Assembly: GCF_040958695.1 (NCBI RefSeq)
Contig: NZ_CP162599.1
Span: forward strand, 1,708,001 to 1,772,000
From: Ornithinibacillus sp. 4-3
GTDB taxonomy: Bacteria > Bacillota > Bacilli > Bacillales > Amphibacillaceae
Direction of reading: 5' to 3'
DNA length: 64,000 nucleotides
Position 1 is the stretch's first letter. Every line of letters begins with the position of its first letter. The translations under genes were made by a program, and so were the position numbers. The notes under the pieces are model-generated. The model had not been told where the DNA came from, did not search any database, and saw nothing but the letters and a program-made list of their open reading frames with translations. Shown piece after piece: positions 5,110 through 64,000 of this stretch.

Positions 5110-6485
5110 GATCACTTTATGTGAAATTTGTTGTGATAACCATTGGCATTATGATTATTAGTGGAATTTTTGCTTTTTTAATTTCCAATGCGTATTATCA
5201 GCAAAAGTTAAAACCTTATAATGATCATAAAAACACAAAGATTGCATTAGATATTGCTGAATTTACCGACAATCATCCGGAGATAAATCTTAATGAGTAC
5301 TTGGAAAATATCTCTTCTATTGGCTACCAAATTTTCTTGGTTGATAATTCTGGAAAGGAATCCTATTTTGGTGCACCTTTTAGGGAATATAATCTAGCTA
5401 ATTCTACTAAAGAACAAGTATTAAACGGAGAAATTTTTCATGGTATTCTAGATTTTCCACAGGAAACATTTGTTACAGGTTTTTTTGCAAATGAATTAAA
5501 GAATACGATTGGTGTACCGTTAACACATAATGAGGAAAAGTATGCTCTTTTTCTAAGACCAGATATTAAGCTTCTTTTTAATGAGATGCATATTTTATTT
5601 GGCTGGTTACTAGCATTAACGATTATTTTAAGTATCATTATGGTTATTTTTAGTACTAAATATTTAATTAATCCAATCTTAAAACTTACAACAGCTACCA
5701 AATCACTTGCTAATGGCAATTTTAATGTTCATCTTGATATTAGTCGCCATGATGAGCTAGGAGAGCTTTCACATAGTTTTTCACAAATGGTTAAAAAACT
5801 GGAGCAAATGGATGATATGAGGAAAGAGTTCACCTCGAATATTTCCCATGATATACAGTCACCTTTATCTAATATAAAAGGGTATACAAATCTATTGGAA
5901 AATGACTCAATAAGTCAAGAAGAAAGAAGCACTTATATTTCTATCATCAACGGAGAAATTCAAAGGCTCTCTACATTAACGAAACAATTACTACTACTTG
6001 CTTCACTAGATAGTGATGAGGATATTTTGAAAAAAGAGTCATTTAATGTTGGAAAACAAATGAAGGAACTAATACGCAACTATCAGTGGCAAATGGCTGA
6101 AAAAGATATTACGCTTGAGTTTACATTACCAGATGTAGAAATCAATGGAGATAAGTCTTTACTTCATACGGTTTGGGATAACTTGTTAACCAATGCCATC
6201 AAATACAACAAAGTGAATGGAAATATTGAAATATCAATTGAAGAGAAAGAAAAATCCGTATTGATAACCTTTGAAGATACAGGAATAGGATTAAGTGATA
6301 ACGTGAAAGAAAGAATCTTTGATCGTTTTTATCGAGTAGATACCTCACGGACACATTCAGTTGAGGGGACTGGATTAGGATTATCAATTGTTGCTGCCAT
6401 TGTTAAACTGCATGGTGGATTAATTCATGTGGATAGTATAGAAAATAAAGGAACTACCTTTGCTATTGAACTACCTGTAAATTAG
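5106..6485 (+). CDS. hssS: Heme-sensing histidine kinase HssS
   Basis: Membrane sensor kinase, 459 aa, partner of HssR. Helix 1 is about 6-29, an extracytoplasmic sensor domain of about 130 residues follows, helix 2 is about 161-183, then HAMP (about 185-238). The dimerisation domain carries His248 in NISHDIQSPLSNIKGY, and the ATPase domain has NAIKYN (N box), FEDTGIGL and GTGLGLSIV. The H-D-x-x-S-P context (DIQSP where many kinases have DLKTP) is a common variant. The gene overlaps hssR by 4 bp. Function as heme sensor is inferred from locus content. Confidence 0.85.
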   Translation: MRSLYVKFVVITIGIMIISGIFAFLISNAYYQQKLKPYNDHKNTKIALDIAEFTDNHPEINLNEYLENISSIGYQIFLVDNSGKESYFGAPFREYNLANSTKEQVLNGEIFHGILDFPQETFVTGFFANELKNTIGVPLTHNEEKYALFLRPDIKLLFNEMHILFGWLLALTIILSIIMVIFSTKYLINPILKLTTATKSLANGNFNVHLDISRHDELGELSHSFSQMVKKLEQMDDMRKEFTSNISHDIQSPLSNIKGYTNLLENDSISQEERSTYISIINGEIQRLSTLTKQLLLLASLDSDEDILKKESFNVGKQMKELIRNYQWQMAEKDITLEFTLPDVEINGDKSLLHTVWDNLLTNAIKYNKVNGNIEISIEEKEKSVLITFEDTGIGLSDNVKERIFDRFYRVDTSRTHSVEGTGLGLSIVAAIVKLHGGLIHVDSIENKGTTFAIELPVN

Positions 6486-6551
6486 TATTATTTATATATA
6501 AAATCAGGCAAATTGCTCTATTTGTTTTCAACTTAATTTTTATAAACGTCT

Positions 6552-6589
6552 GTTCACACTCCGTTCATATTCAGGAAGTACATTATAGA
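6552..6589 (+). promoter_or_regulatory. Second HssR-type box and promoter, upstream of the 129-aa membrane protein
   Basis: GTTCACACT (6552-6560), a CC spacer, and GTTCATATT (6563-6571) are followed after 12 bp by the -10 TATAGA (6584-6589). Repeat length, spacer and distance to the -10 are identical to the hrtB promoter. This supports co-regulation by HssR. Confidence 0.72.
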
Positions 6590-6635
6590 TGATTAATTTA
6601 TAAAAATATGATGAACAAATAGGAGAGAAGTCAGT

Positions 6636-7025
6636 ATGAATAAAAATAGTAAAAACTTATTACGATTTGCAGGGATTTTTGGGTTGATTGGAGCAATATT
6701 AGGCGCACATATGGCTGGTTCAGGTTCATATGCATTTAGAGCGGTTCATGCACATATTCTTGTTGTCGGTTGGTTAACTCTTTTTGGATGGGCAGTTTTC
6801 TATAAGATTTTTCAAACAACAGAAACCGTTTTGACAAAGCTGCATGTTTGGAGTGCGATAATAGGATCTATCGGCTTAACAGTAGGAATGTGGTTATATA
6901 TGGTTAAACCATTTAATCTACCTGAAGGTGTCACTTTATTCATTTATATCGGTGGGGGAGTAGCATTACTTCTGAGTTTTCTACTGTTTTTCCTGTTAAC
7001 ATTATTTATTAAGGAAAAAAAATAG
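6636..7025 (+). CDS. Small four-helix membrane protein with HxH motif, probable HssR regulon member
   Basis: Protein of 129 aa with four predicted membrane helices (about 11-27, 37-60, 72-90, 101-125). Histidines fall at 25, 38, 40 and 70, and the stretch AVHAHILVVGWLTLFGW resembles the HxH...GW segments of subunit-I-like heme proteins (cbb3 oxidase/NorB relatives) only in a loose way. GGAGAG stands 8 bp before the ATG. Its own promoter carries an HssR-type box. I infer a role in handling heme at the membrane or in respiration under heme stress; no biochemical function is known to me. Confidence 0.7.
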   Translation: MNKNSKNLLRFAGIFGLIGAILGAHMAGSGSYAFRAVHAHILVVGWLTLFGWAVFYKIFQTTETVLTKLHVWSAIIGSIGLTVGMWLYMVKPFNLPEGVTLFIYIGGGVALLLSFLLFFLLTLFIKEKK

Positions 7026-59518: not shown

Positions 59519-59583
59519 TGTGGCTATTCTATATTGAAAAAATATGAAAACTATGGCAGAGTTAGAGGTAATAATTGAATAAA

Positions 59584-59690
59584 CATGTGGGGGGACCAGT
59601 GTTGCTGGTTGAGATAATATCCGTAAGATACAGACCCTTAGAACCTGATCTGGTTGATACCAGCGTAGGGAACATACAGGAAAAGTATTT
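59584..59690 (+). promoter_or_regulatory. TPP riboswitch (THI box)
   Basis: Contains the conserved thi-box parts: GGGGGGACCAGT...GGTTGAGAT (P2/J), then ACCCTTAGAACCTGATCTGG and GATACCAGCGTAGGGAA. These form the pyrimidine- and pyrophosphate-sensing helices of the TPP aptamer. It is followed by a terminator at 59712, the expression platform, so bound TPP should stop transcription of the downstream luxE-like operon. Confidence 0.97.
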
Positions 59691-59711
59691 TATTTTTACA
59701 TAAAATTGTAT

Positions 59712-59747
59712 GCACCCTAGGCTTCGTATAGCTAGGGTGCTTTTTAT
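59712..59747 (+). terminator. Terminator of the TPP riboswitch
   Basis: GCACCCTAG (59712-59720) pairs with CTAGGGTGC (59732-59740), then TTTTTATTG. It stands between the aptamer and the ribosome site of the first gene. Confidence 0.88.
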
Positions 59748-59774
59748 TGTGTTTATTTTTAGGAGGAATGCATA

Positions 59775-60824
59775 ATGAAACAGGCAATTCAAACATTTAT
59801 CGAGAAACCAGCAGCAAGTGAGCAAAACTTTAATGAACTTGCCATAGATCTTTTCAAGCATTTATATAGGAAGAATAATGCTTATCAACAATATTGTAGG
59901 AGAAAAGGAATCGGAATTCTACAAGTTCAAACGTGGAAGGATATTCCGAGTGTATCGACAGAAGCTTTTAAAAACACATTTCTAAGTACTGTTCCGGAGA
60001 AGGAATGTGCACGTGTATTTATGACAAGTGGAACAACAAGTGGAAAGCAGGGAAAGCATTATCATGCGGATTTAGAAATATATGATCTTTCTGCCTTAAG
60101 AAGCTTTCGAGAATTTGTTAGTGACGAAATCCGTCCAATGGCAATTTTATTTCCTAATGTACAAGAAATGCCTAATTCTTCGCTTGCTCATTATTTAGAA
60201 TTACACCGCAAACATTTCGGTACAGAAGATTCACGACATTTTGTCACAAAAAATGGATTACAACTAGAAGCATTTATGAGGTGGATAAAGGAGCATGCTA
60301 ATATTCCAGTAATTGTACTTGGTGCTAGCTATAGTTTTGTTCATTTATTTGATGCATTAGAGGAGCAAGGAGAATCACTTCCTCTACATGCAGATAGTCT
60401 AATTTTCGATACAGGTGGTTTTAAAAGTTTCTCTCGTACCTTAGAAGAAAATGTGTTTTACAATAAGCTTGCGCAAATATTCCATGTGAATATAGAAAAT
60501 CTTATTAATATGTATGGAATGACAGAATTATCTACACAGTATTATGCGAAAATTACTAAAAATCAACCAAGTATTAAACAGGCGCCACATTGGCTTCGTT
60601 TTAAAGTCGTCGATCCGATTACAGGAGAAGAAGTACCTAAAGGGGAGGTAGGTATATTGGTGCATATTGATTTAGCTAATATTCATTCTGTTCCAGCAGT
60701 CCAAACAAGTGATTTAGCGATCGAAAGGGATACAGGATTTGAATTACTTGGTAGACAAGCAAATGCAGAACCTAAAGGCTGTTCCTTGTCTGCAAAAGAA
60801 TGGTTAGAGGAGAAAGAATCATGA
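59775..60824 (+). CDS. LuxE-like acyl-protein synthetase (TPP-controlled)
   Basis: Acyl-activating enzyme of 349 aa in the LuxE/PaaK family: it adenylates a carboxylate and takes the acyl group on an own cysteine. MTSGTTSGKQG (83-93) is the ATP loop, NMYGMTELSTQYY the adenylation motif, and TGGFK part of the active site. Near the C-terminus PKGCSL carries Cys336, 14 residues from the end, equivalent to the acyl-accepting Cys of LuxE. AGGAGG precedes the ATG. It overlaps the LuxC-like gene (ATGA). No luciferase genes are near. The substrate may be a thiamin-related carboxylate, which is inference. Confidence 0.85.
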   Translation: MKQAIQTFIEKPAASEQNFNELAIDLFKHLYRKNNAYQQYCRRKGIGILQVQTWKDIPSVSTEAFKNTFLSTVPEKECARVFMTSGTTSGKQGKHYHADLEIYDLSALRSFREFVSDEIRPMAILFPNVQEMPNSSLAHYLELHRKHFGTEDSRHFVTKNGLQLEAFMRWIKEHANIPVIVLGASYSFVHLFDALEEQGESLPLHADSLIFDTGGFKSFSRTLEENVFYNKLAQIFHVNIENLINMYGMTELSTQYYAKITKNQPSIKQAPHWLRFKVVDPITGEEVPKGEVGILVHIDLANIHSVPAVQTSDLAIERDTGFELLGRQANAEPKGCSLSAKEWLEEKES

Positions 60825-62257
60825 AAATGATTGAATATGGTGGATATCTACCTCCAGAAGCAAGAACAATGGATATAGCAAATCGTGTGCTTACTTTTCA
60901 ACAAGGAGAAGAAGAATTAGAAATTCATATGCCATATCCTAGCTCTGAACAGTTAACTCAGCTCACGAAAATGATCAAAGCATCACCAATTCAATGTTTG
61001 CATACAACTGATTTGATGAAGGCAATTGATAAGACTGTCCATCTATTATTAGATCGTACACATCCACTTCGGCAAAAAGCTGAAAAGCTGTTACCGATTA
61101 TTACAGGATATAACGCTGAAGTGGTGCGTTTAGGGCTTACACAATCTTTGCAAACCTTTCGTGAGCATGAATTACGTCGCTGGTTAAATGTTAATTTTCA
61201 GCAGCCTCACATATTAGATCAATTTGAACCGACTTCACATGGTGGATTTACAAAAGCAATTTCTCCGCAATTAACAACACATATATGGGCAGGTAATGTA
61301 CCAGGATTACCACTTTGGAGTTTCATTGCAAGCCTTTTAGTAAAAGGTGGAGTAGTTGGGAAAGTTGCTAGTGCAGAACCTTTTTTCATCGGTTTATTCT
61401 GCCAAGTTTTAGCAGAAGTAGAACCACGTCTAGCTAATGCAATGGCAATTGTTTCATGGCAAGGAGGGGATCAAGCACGTGAAAAAGCTTTATTTAGAGC
61501 ATCTGATGTTGTGGTAGGTTATGGAACGAATCAAACTATTATTAACTTACAAGCTCAAATAGTAGCACCTACTCGCTTTATTTCTTTCGGTCATAAATTA
61601 AGCTTTGGCTTATTACTGCGTGAAGCATTAGATCATCAAAAGAGTGAAAAATTTGCAGATCAAGCAGCATTAGATATTGTTCGTTATGATCAACAAGGCT
61701 GTTATTCTCCACAAACCTTTTTTGTAGAACGCAGGGGGCGAACAACACCAAAGGAATGGGCAGAATTATTAGCAAGGAAATTGCAAGTATATGAAGAACG
61801 TTATCCATTGCGTAAGCTCTCTATGGAAGAGGCAAGTGAAAGAATTGCTTGGCGTGATGCGAAAGAATGGCAAGAATCTGCTCAGGTTTTCTCTTCTAAA
61901 GTAAGTGCTTGGATGGTAGCGTATGAAGAAAAACTTAGCTTAGAGCCATCCCCATTATCTCGGACGGTTCATGTAATTGCAGTAGATGATTGGCAAGAAG
62001 TGTTAGATGTACTTCAGGATAAACGTGATATTTTGCAAACAGTTGGTGTTGGTGCATCTGTAGAAAATTTATTTGCTGTAGCAACAGCGTTCAGTAGATA
62101 TGGAATAACAAGAGTAACCAGTATAGGCAGGATGACAAAGCTTCATCCCGGTTGGCATCAGGATGGTTATTCATTACTAAGAGAGCTTGTCCAATTAATT
62201 GATATTGATCCAGCTACAATTAGAGATTTAGAAGCTTTAAATACATATACAGATTAG
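60821..62257 (+). CDS. LuxC-like acyl reductase (TPP-controlled)
   Basis: NADPH-dependent acyl (CoA) reductase of 478 aa, LuxC family of the aldehyde dehydrogenase fold. HIWAGNVPGLPLWSFIASLL is typical; the catalytic cysteine is Cys294 in YDQQGCYSPQTFFVE, as in the LuxC QQxCxxPQ motif. It would reduce the acyl group handed over by the LuxE-like partner to an aldehyde. Start ATG 60821 overlaps the previous stop by 4 bp and has TTAGAGGAG upstream. Both catalytic cysteines being kept argues for a working pair. Confidence 0.87.
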   Translation: MKMIEYGGYLPPEARTMDIANRVLTFQQGEEELEIHMPYPSSEQLTQLTKMIKASPIQCLHTTDLMKAIDKTVHLLLDRTHPLRQKAEKLLPIITGYNAEVVRLGLTQSLQTFREHELRRWLNVNFQQPHILDQFEPTSHGGFTKAISPQLTTHIWAGNVPGLPLWSFIASLLVKGGVVGKVASAEPFFIGLFCQVLAEVEPRLANAMAIVSWQGGDQAREKALFRASDVVVGYGTNQTIINLQAQIVAPTRFISFGHKLSFGLLLREALDHQKSEKFADQAALDIVRYDQQGCYSPQTFFVERRGRTTPKEWAELLARKLQVYEERYPLRKLSMEEASERIAWRDAKEWQESAQVFSSKVSAWMVAYEEKLSLEPSPLSRTVHVIAVDDWQEVLDVLQDKRDILQTVGVGASVENLFAVATAFSRYGITRVTSIGRMTKLHPGWHQDGYSLLRELVQLIDIDPATIRDLEALNTYTD

Positions 62258-62269
62258 GGGGAATACAAA

Positions 62270-63019
62270 ATGATGGAATTAGAATTGCAAGATGTTTCAT
62301 TTCAATATGAACAGAGAGCTTTCTCTTTAGAAAAAATAAATTGGGTATTGCCTCCGGGTGAAATTCATTGCTGGCTTGGAAGAAGTGGAAGTGGTAAAAC
62401 AACACTACTTCAAATAGCAGCCGGATTAAAAATACCAACAGCAGGACAGGTGCTACATCAGCAAAATCTAGTAAATAATCCACTTTCAGATATTGGTTTT
62501 GTATTTCAAGATGCGACATTACTACCGTGGAAAAGAGTAATAGATAATATTTTATTGCCAATTCAGCTGCAACGAAAAATAGAAGCAAAGGATTATGCAT
62601 ATGCAGAAGAGCTACTTCAGATGTTGCGAATTCCTAATTTAGCAAAACGTTATCCATTAACACTTTCAGGTGGTCAAAAAAGTAGAGTAGCAATTGCACG
62701 AGCATTAATTACCAAGCCTACCTTACTTTTTTGTGATGAACCTTTTGCGGCACTGGACTTAATGACAAAGGAAGAATTACAAAATGAATTACTTTATTTA
62801 AATGAGAAGAAAAAACTAGCAATGCTATTTGTTACCCATGATATTGCAGAAGCTGCTTTTTTAGCACATCGGGTTGGTGTTATGGAAAATGGTGCTTTTA
62901 TTTATGATGGCAAGACACCTATATATGAGGAAAATAATACAAATCGACGAAATTCAAAACAATTTCATGATTATTGTCGAGAGATTAGACAGTCGTTAGA
63001 AGGTAGTATCTATGCGTAA
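62270..63019 (+). CDS. ABC transporter ATPase (nitrate/taurine/thiamin-precursor type)
   Basis: ATPase of 249 aa. Walker A GRSGSGKTT (37-45), Q loop FVFQDATLLPWKR with the DATLLPW form typical of SsuB/TauB/ThiZ, signature LSGGQKSRVAIARA, Walker B LLFCDEPFAALD, H loop FVTHDIAEA. It lies 12 bp after the LuxC-like gene and overlaps the permease gene by 8 bp. With riboswitch control it is best viewed as a ThiZ-like subunit. Confidence 0.9.
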   Translation: MMELELQDVSFQYEQRAFSLEKINWVLPPGEIHCWLGRSGSGKTTLLQIAAGLKIPTAGQVLHQQNLVNNPLSDIGFVFQDATLLPWKRVIDNILLPIQLQRKIEAKDYAYAEELLQMLRIPNLAKRYPLTLSGGQKSRVAIARALITKPTLLFCDEPFAALDLMTKEELQNELLYLNEKKKLAMLFVTHDIAEAAFLAHRVGVMENGAFIYDGKTPIYEENNTNRRNSKQFHDYCREIRQSLEGSIYA

Positions 63020-63770
63020 GAATGCAGCAATAACATCTGTTATTCTTGGAATTTTATTAATTATTGTGTGGGAATATCTTGCGCGAGGACTATCAAATCT
63101 TATTTTACCGAATCCAACTGCAGTGTTTTTGAAATTACAAGAAGGTATTGTAAGTGGCGATTTTCTTCCTCATTTATTAACAACATTGACAGAAGTTATG
63201 CTTGGTTTATTTATTGGTATTGTTTTTGGTGTGGGACTTGGGATTCTAATAGGAGAGAATGAATTTTTAAGGAAGGTATCTTTTCCCTATATTGTTATCT
63301 CCCAAGCGATTCCTAAAATAGCATTAGCTCCATTATTTATGCTGTGGTTTGGTTATGGGATGACTTCAAAAATAGTGATTACAGCTTTAATTTGTTTCTT
63401 CCCATTGCTTGAAGCAACAGCAAGTGCTGTCCGCCAAGTTAATCAACAACAGCTTGATTTGTTTCGATTAATCCATGCAAGTCAGATGCAAACACTATGG
63501 CATTTAAAGATTCCAGCAGGGCTTCCAACCATTCTACAAGGATTACGAGTTGCAGTAATTTTAGCATTAGTAGGAGCAATTGTTGGCGAATTTATTGGTG
63601 CAAATCAAGGATTAGGTGCATTAATTATTGCATCACAAAGCATGATGGATACTACTTTAATGTTTGCTATTTTAATTCTGTTATCGATGATTGGCTTTTT
63701 ATTATATGGCCTTGTCAATTTATTAGAAAGTAAATTATTACGTTATAAAAAAGGAGATACAAAACATTGA
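63012..63770 (+). CDS. ABC transporter permease (SsuC/TauC/ThiX type)
   Basis: Permease of 252 aa with about six membrane helices. The EAA-like loop is IPAGLPTILQGLRVAVILAL, followed by GAIVGEFIGANQGLGALI, the block typical of the SsuC/TauC/ThiX group. LPNPTAVFLKL near the start is also usual. It is coupled by overlap to the ATPase before and the binding protein after it. Confidence 0.92.
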   Translation: MRKNAAITSVILGILLIIVWEYLARGLSNLILPNPTAVFLKLQEGIVSGDFLPHLLTTLTEVMLGLFIGIVFGVGLGILIGENEFLRKVSFPYIVISQAIPKIALAPLFMLWFGYGMTSKIVITALICFFPLLEATASAVRQVNQQQLDLFRLIHASQMQTLWHLKIPAGLPTILQGLRVAVILALVGAIVGEFIGANQGLGALIIASQSMMDTTLMFAILILLSMIGFLLYGLVNLLESKLLRYKKGDTKH

Positions 63771-64000
63771 AGAAAATAAAGGTTATCATACTACTTGTTT
63801 TTATAAGTTTACTAGTTGCTTGTGGTAAAGGTAATAGTAAAGATGGACAAATAGAAATCACATTAGCTAATTGGAGTCAGCTGATTGTTGAGCAGACTAA
63901 CTTACTAGTTGAGGAAGAGAAAGGATTTTTTGAAAAGGAAGGAATTGATTTGAAGCTTATTCCAGGTAACGGAGGACAAGATGCATTAAAAACAATGATT
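63767..64000 (+). CDS. ABC transporter substrate-binding lipoprotein, 5' part (cut by window edge)
   Basis: The first 78 codons, from TTG 63767 (overlapping the permease stop; AAAAGGAGAT upstream). Lipobox LLVAC (Cys19), then ITLANWSQLIVEQTNLLVEE and KGFFEKEGIDLKLIPGNGGQ, the NMT1/THI5-like (SsuA/ThiY) opening, where family members bind sulfonates or pyrimidine precursors. The ligand-binding residues lie beyond the edge. Under TPP control a thiamin precursor or related acid is the likely ligand. Confidence 0.88.
   Translation, partial: MKKIKVIILLVFISLLVACGKGNSKDGQIEITLANWSQLIVEQTNLLVEEEKGFFEKEGIDLKLIPGNGGQDALKTMI

Follow-up and report, generated by a model that had tools for sequence, protein, structure and literature searches.

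The 3' end of a 64,000-nucleotide stretch of the Ornithinibacillus sp. 4-3 genome (contig NZ_CP162599.1, positions 1,708,001 to 1,772,000; hereafter the window, numbered from its first letter) carries an operon that is headed by a thiamin pyrophosphate (TPP) riboswitch and combines homologs of the LuxE and LuxC acid reductase components with an ATP-binding cassette (ABC) importer and a short-chain dehydrogenase (SDR). We consider it probable that this is a TPP-controlled vitamin B1 salvage operon, with an acid of the pyrimidine half of thiamin as our best guess for its substrate. The riboswitch, the operon structure, the enzyme families and their catalytic residues, the wide conservation of the arrangement and its thi-gene neighbors are established directly from the sequences; the operon is a real and widely conserved TPP-controlled unit, apparently new to the literature, and probably represents a variant of thiamin salvage built around a LuxC/LuxE reductase.

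All components lie on the forward (+) strand. The riboswitch aptamer (59579..59688) matches the Rfam family RF00059 (72.6 bits, with 54.3 as the gathering score; E 2.4e-12), is the sole gathering-level Rfam match in the whole window, and stands upstream of the regulated gene as members of this family do, with the luxE start 86 nt to its 3' side. Between the two is an intrinsic terminator (59712..59745) that forms the expression platform: a perfect 9-bp stem that encloses a loop of 11 nt, together with a T run; the stem is recovered in both the minimum-free-energy and the centroid folds, and went unreported by a simple terminator scanner whose loop limit is 8. A Shine-Dalgarno sequence follows between the terminator and the first gene, which codes for a LuxE-like acyl-adenylating/acyl-protein synthetase (59775..60824; PF04443, 5.8e-24). 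Next come genes for a LuxC-like acyl-thioester reductase (60800..62257; PF05893, 1.1e-83), whose true start is probably at 60821 instead of 60800, giving an ATGA overlap as in many relatives, an importer ATPase (62270..63019; PF00005, 1.4e-29), an importer permease (63012..63770; PF00528, 2.1e-31) and an NMT1/THI5-type substrate-binding protein that appears by eye to be a lipoprotein (PF09084, 1.4e-48). The first 78 codons of the last gene (63767..64000) are in the window, and it crosses the edge to end at genome position C1:1772741 (5767-6741 in the extended locus L007). Thus both the canonical TPP aptamer with its terminator and the five open reading frames joined by overlaps or a 12-bp gap, as proposed in a sequence-only reading of this DNA, are borne out by the Rfam, fold and Pfam results. 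Outside the window, 6 bp behind the binding-protein gene, the SDR gene (C1:1772748-1773512; L007 6748-7512; PF13561, 8.6e-52) completes the set. A further gene for a 156-aa glyoxalase-fold (VOC) protein begins 43 bp past it (L007:7556-8026) and is outside the gene set common to the relatives.

The two reductase components have the features of competent members of their superfamilies. The LuxE-like protein shows, in addition to the PF04443 match, the AMP-binding motifs and a C-terminal cysteine (Cys336), and the LuxC-like protein combines a PF05893 score of 281.9 bits with the catalytic Cys301. Their only matches in the PDB are the LuxE (5.6e-32; sole match at E<=0.01) and LuxC (3.4e-42; sole match at E<=0.001) of the structure 7xc6, with the cysteine of the C-terminal GCS motif of LuxE and that of the DQQxC motif of LuxC (Cys301) both aligning with cysteines of the solved proteins. 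In the lux enzymes the acyl group is borne by these cysteines. With the six named loci that duplicate genomes under G handles (our genome labels) left out, Ser85, Gly86, Thr88, Tyr247, Gly248, Thr250, Glu251, Asp313, Arg327 and Cys336 of LuxE are present in 101/101 operon rows, with Thr87 replaced by Ser in one of the 101; Cys301 of LuxC is present in 100 of 101 rows, the remaining row being truncated; and Tyr160 and Lys164 of the SDR are found in 94/94 rows, all of which have Ser or Thr at position 147.

Since 7xc6 provides the sole solved homologs by sequence, one might suppose that this is an ordinary fatty-acid reductase incidentally placed under a TPP riboswitch and unrelated to thiamin salvage. 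We regard this as highly improbable. The LuxE-like protein scores 68.1 bits against a cut-off of 550 for the curated long-chain-fatty-acid LuxE family (NCBIfam NF052244), and the LuxC-like protein 96.4 bits against 750 for its long-chain counterpart (NF052251). Pfam detects no LuxD or luciferase (LuxAB) among the genes of the window operon, though no dedicated search of the genome or of the relatives was made for them. The riboswitch linkage in two phyla, the separate LuxE clade, the invariable SDR among the sampled genomes and the thi-gene neighbors, all detailed below, likewise speak against an incidental association.

Within the Bacillota, a search with the window LuxE matched 6 of 159 genomes of the family at E 1e-10 or better, and 20 of 397 genomes of the order and 16 of 398 of the phylum at 1e-20, the host genome being counted each time. 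Excluding G123 (25% identity) and 12 genomes of the phylum-level sample with hits of <=35% identity leaves 27 operon genomes. Whole-genome searches show the operon to be headed by a TPP riboswitch in 27/27 of them: in 21 luxE follows it directly, in one thiW-luxE, in four a gene for an NCS2-type permease and then luxE, and in one thiM-thiD-thiE-NCS2-luxE. Of the 27 aptamers, six fall slightly below the gathering score (49.5-53.9 bits). An SDR gene lies behind luxC in all 27. The importer is of the ABC type in 21 genomes, is replaced by an NCS2-type permease in five and is absent in one; the ABC count includes G105, whose permease was missed by the selection of reading frames but is present in L115 of the same genome, and G544, with its binding protein in two frames. 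In G105 two tandem TPP aptamers (L035:5694-5794 and 5894-6003) head the operon, and this duplication could sharpen the response. In G662 a protein with an AIR-synthase-like domain fused to ThiN, a thiamin-phosphate synthase, is encoded directly behind luxE-luxC-SDR (L098:10826-12376).

The arrangement extends well beyond this phylum. Of 427 confirmed loci from a scan of named genomes we examined the best 80; the LuxE alignment used was built from TPP-linked members, and the set is hence biased to close relatives. Six of the 80 are from the same genomes as loci under G handles, and without them there are 74 distinct loci. They belong to Bacillota such as Oceanobacillus, Ruoffia, Desulfosporosinus, Metabacillus, Domibacillus and Geobacillus, and to Pseudomonadota such as Curvibacter, Ramlibacter, Limnohabitans, Acidovorax, Delftia, Bordetella, Malikia, Paenalcaligenes, Azospirillum and Methylobacterium, among others. 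Using a TPP model of our own, built partly from two of these loci (L124, L151), we find the riboswitch <=400 bp from the LuxE match in 64 of the best 80 and in the order TPP-thiD-luxE in nine; four lack it at E 0.01 (two of them give weak matches, with E 0.04 and 0.08), and three begin at a contig edge. Accordingly, 73 of the 77 testable loci, from both phyla, are TPP-headed. Rfam alone, applied to seven of these loci, gives a gathering-level match in two (Curvibacter and Azospirillum), and on short stretches scores 53.6 bits in Ramlibacter, just below the cut-off, 60.2 in Limnohabitans and 59.4 in Bordetella genomosp. 5. Among the 71 of these loci with 7 kb of downstream sequence, 70 have all six genes (luxE, luxC, ATPase, permease, binding protein and SDR), the exception being L194, with luxE-luxC-SDR-thiW, where thiW replaces the importer.

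By comparison, the 18 loci of more distant LuxE proteins (G033, G123 and 16 loci of the phylum with <=35% identity) have a TPP riboswitch in 0/18 of their neighborhoods, and the LuxC model of the operon matches only G033 and G123 among them. We can therefore reject a chance association of luxE with TPP riboswitches, given 27/27 and 73/77 operon loci with the riboswitch versus none of the 18. The suggestion that luxE-luxC pairs should recur beside thi-boxes across genera thus holds, and the contrary prospect of an association confined to a single genome is dispelled by its presence in both phyla. The distant relatives of the same phylum (L099-L114) occur in recurring clusters devoid of TPP riboswitches, and several have frames of 940-1057 aa; we had entertained these as LuxC-LuxE fusions and dropped the idea, as they do not match the operon LuxC model.

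We placed 119 LuxE rows (100 from operons and 19 others) in a tree, where a single branch, with an SH-aLRT support of 95%, separates the operon rows from the rest; the search was a quick one with long branches flagged, and the six duplicate loci and L152 were omitted. The window LuxE falls in a long-branched group with those of Oceanobacillus oncorhynchi and two Ruoffia (Aerococcaceae), and the operon LuxE is missing from G001, the one other sampled species of the host's genus; this grouping, together with the lack in a congener, suggests that the window LuxE was acquired by lateral transfer. Two loci bear unexpected names: L152, from a bin named Chitinophaga pinensis, has a LuxE that shares 95.8% identity with the Malikia spinosa protein (L182), and the LuxE of L175, from a genome named Pantoea sp. 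18069, falls inside the Acidovorax group. Both are probably mis-binned or mislabelled.

With the association recurring in two phyla and the SDR conserved alongside it, the proposal of the sequence-only reading that a thiamin-related carboxylate is imported and reduced is well supported by comparative genomics, and the SDR would supply the step to the alcohol. We infer the direction of the reaction, the order of the steps, the substrate and the cofactors as follows. When TPP is low, the riboswitch would let transcription pass the terminator, and the ABC importer would take up a thiamin breakdown product in its oxidized, carboxylate form. In an ATP-dependent step the LuxE-like enzyme would then activate this acid and bind the acyl group to its C-terminal cysteine as a thioester; from there the LuxC-like enzyme would receive it on its own cysteine for an NADPH-dependent reduction to the aldehyde, and the SDR would convert the aldehyde to the alcohol. 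The likeliest pair of substrate and product would be 4-amino-2-methylpyrimidine-5-carboxylate and hydroxymethylpyrimidine (HMP), with ThiD phosphorylating the latter and ThiE coupling it to the thiazole. We are moderately inclined to see here an undescribed B1 salvage route of Bacillota and Pseudomonadota, wherein the imported pyrimidine carboxylate would be turned into HMP in two reductions by LuxE/LuxC and the SDR.

The host genome is a single contig of 3.69 Mb and has six TPP aptamers, all above the cut-off. Apart from that of the window operon, one precedes a lone NMT1 gene, one a permease and a ThiY-like NMT1 binding protein, one YkoF, one thiW-thiD-thiM-thiE-tenA and one a transporter of the ThiT type. 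A profile search of the genome finds neither a full-length ThiC nor a full-length ThiG, and by this search the host would make neither thiamin half and would therefore rely on salvage. The binding protein of the operon is only 25% identical to the TPP-controlled ThiY-like protein of the same genome (L009), and for this reason its ligand is likely a different one; its PDB matches include 4nmy (1.3e-16), 3qsl (2.1e-15) and ThiY, 3ix1 (2.2e-9). We set aside the idea that it is a THI5-like HMP-P synthase, because it has an apparent signal peptide by eye, with a lipobox Cys invariant in 14 aligned Bacillota rows, and its own ATPase and permease alongside. The lone NMT1/THI5-like gene elsewhere in the genome (L008:2402-3493), also led by a TPP riboswitch, codes for a protein that lacks a signal peptide by eye and is followed by genes that look by eye like transposase genes.

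The sequence-only reading had left the substrate as either a pyrimidine or a thiazole acid; of these the pyrimidine option has gained ground and the thiazole option is less favored. We surveyed ThiM and ThiC in 39 hand-chosen genomes, mostly isolates, from among the best 80 loci (25 Pseudomonadota and 14 Bacillota), taking an E below 1e-60 as full-length ThiM. It is absent from 24 of the 25 Pseudomonadota operon genomes, with Malikia granosa as the exception, a count that covers operon genomes only, Burkholderiales included, with completeness not given. In the Bacillota of the survey, 13 of 14 have it and Metabacillus fastidiosus does not. ThiC is absent from 9/25 Pseudomonadota and 5/14 Bacillota, and the former nine also lack full-length ThiM (here, too, completeness is not given). 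In Ramlibacter and Schlegelella the operon takes the form TPP-thiD-luxE-luxC-ABC-SDR-thiE (in L127, Pfam identifies ThiD with 6e-97 and ThiE with 4e-39), and 6 of 7 tested genomes with this organization lack ThiC as against 3 of the 18 other Pseudomonadota surveyed. Two Limnohabitans and R. paludis, all of which lack both ThiC and full-length ThiM, carry a thiO-like gene and thiG next to the operon (in L139 and L188, Pfam gives ThiG with 8e-100 and 8e-102, and the ThiO-like protein is an FAD-dependent oxidoreductase). Taken together, the absence of full-length ThiM in all but one of the surveyed Pseudomonadota and the presence of thiD and thiE within or next to the operon where ThiC is missing favor the pyrimidine half over the thiazole half as the source of the substrate. 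We also count for it the replacement of the importer by a permease of the nucleobase type in some of the Bacillota.

On the thiazole alternative, imported 4-methylthiazole-5-acetate would be reduced to hydroxyethylthiazole (HET) and then phosphorylated by ThiM. Beyond the limit on the ThiM count just given, several observations weigh against the pyrimidine proposal, and some of them fit this alternative. Thiazole-salvage genes adjoin the operon in certain Bacillota: thiW and thiM in L086, thiM with thiD and thiE in L091, L095, L098 and L141, thiM in L125, and thiW in L194. In the Bacillota operon genomes ThiM is present in 27/27 as against 31/41 of the sampled relatives without the operon, ThiG in 23/27 against 20/41, and ThiC is commoner (17/27 against 9/41), all comparisons that ignore kinship among the genomes. 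Given this higher frequency of ThiC, the operon in Bacillota would add to other sources and would be no simple substitute for ThiC. R. ginsenosidimutans (G938) has a partial hit to the ThiM model over 91 positions (27.8 bits against a cut-off of 27), and two Paenalcaligenes operon loci have no TPP riboswitch at E<=1 with our local model, one of which, rechecked with Rfam, has none at E<=0.1. On its own, the Bacillota phylogenetic profile failed to discriminate between the two halves. We nevertheless deem the thiazole alternative unlikely: in the operon genomes that lack full-length ThiM, namely the 24 Pseudomonadota and Metabacillus fastidiosus, the known route would have no use for HET; the majority of the Bacillota operon genomes have ThiG, whose gene also adjoins the operon in Limnohabitans and R. 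paludis; and none of the 27 has ThiC without ThiG, although that combination is likewise found in 0/41 relatives.

A further alternative is that the whole molecule, thiamin-acetic acid, is reduced to thiamin, or that the substrate differs among the sub-clades with ABC, NCS2 and thiW variants. TPP control would suit any thiamin vitamer, the type of importer varies among the sub-clades, and L194, with its thiW, and the rows of the NCS2 type have separate positions in the LuxE tree. Yet direct formation of thiamin would need neither ThiD nor ThiE, whose genes are the commonest of the thi neighbors looked for in the 74 distinct named loci (thiE in 25 and thiD in 24, as against thiM in two and thiW in one), and we accordingly hold this alternative to be quite unlikely.

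Microbes exchange vitamin B1 and its fragments, which are nutrients in short supply. If our proposal is correct, a riboswitch-controlled route from acid to alcohol would allow the recycling of such oxidized B1 waste, and a clade of LuxC/LuxE reductases would have a vitamin-related role apart from luminescence. Predictions of B1 auxotrophy would also change, with ThiC-less genomes gaining another source of the pyrimidine; in the ThiC-less Ramlibacter and Limnohabitans the operon would be a main, perhaps the only, TPP-controlled one. The acid in question has a precedent, in that 4-amino-2-methylpyrimidine-5-carboxylate, the oxidized acid of the pyrimidine half, is recorded as a thiamin metabolite found in urine, going by the title of Neal and Pearson 1964 as cited in PMC7780320. 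The vitamers listed in the relevant passages of PMC10881298 are HMP, AmMP, FAMP, HET and cHET, with no pyrimidine carboxylate among them. The riboswitch survey PMC3766115 describes TPP regulons in terms of thiamin biosynthesis and transporter genes, and its passages on these mention no LuxE/LuxC pair, LuxE itself not having been a search target there. Among the matches listed from the openly licensed PMC literature we found no description of a TPP riboswitch or of thiamin in connection with LuxE/LuxC or an acyl-CoA reductase.

Among known systems, the LuxCDE fatty acid reductase of bioluminescence (7xc6) shares with the operon both enzyme families, the cysteines of the GCS and DQQxC motifs, and the acid-to-aldehyde chemistry, which is known for the lux enzymes and expected here. 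It differs in that the operon enzymes fall far under the curated cut-offs of the lux families and come with TPP control, a solute importer and an SDR, with no LuxD or luciferase among the genes of the operon. The ThiXYZ and ThiY-TenA systems for formylaminopyrimidine salvage likewise rely on an ABC importer under TPP control whose binding protein is of the NMT1/THI5 type, and feed HMP formation; however, the host has a separate TPP-controlled ThiY-like binding protein with a permease and TenA in a third TPP operon, and the enzymes of the window operon are reductases. The ThiW-ThiM thiazole salvage system is also under TPP control and is an occasional neighbor of the LuxE/LuxC operon, but full-length ThiM is missing from 24 of the 25 surveyed Pseudomonadota that carry the latter. 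Finally, CytX and PLUTO are NCS1 nucleobase permeases that are able to carry HMP and cluster with thi genes, according to the passages concerned in PMC5874261, whereas the permease of the variant LuxE/LuxC operons is of the NCS2/xanthine-uracil type and is coupled to reductases.

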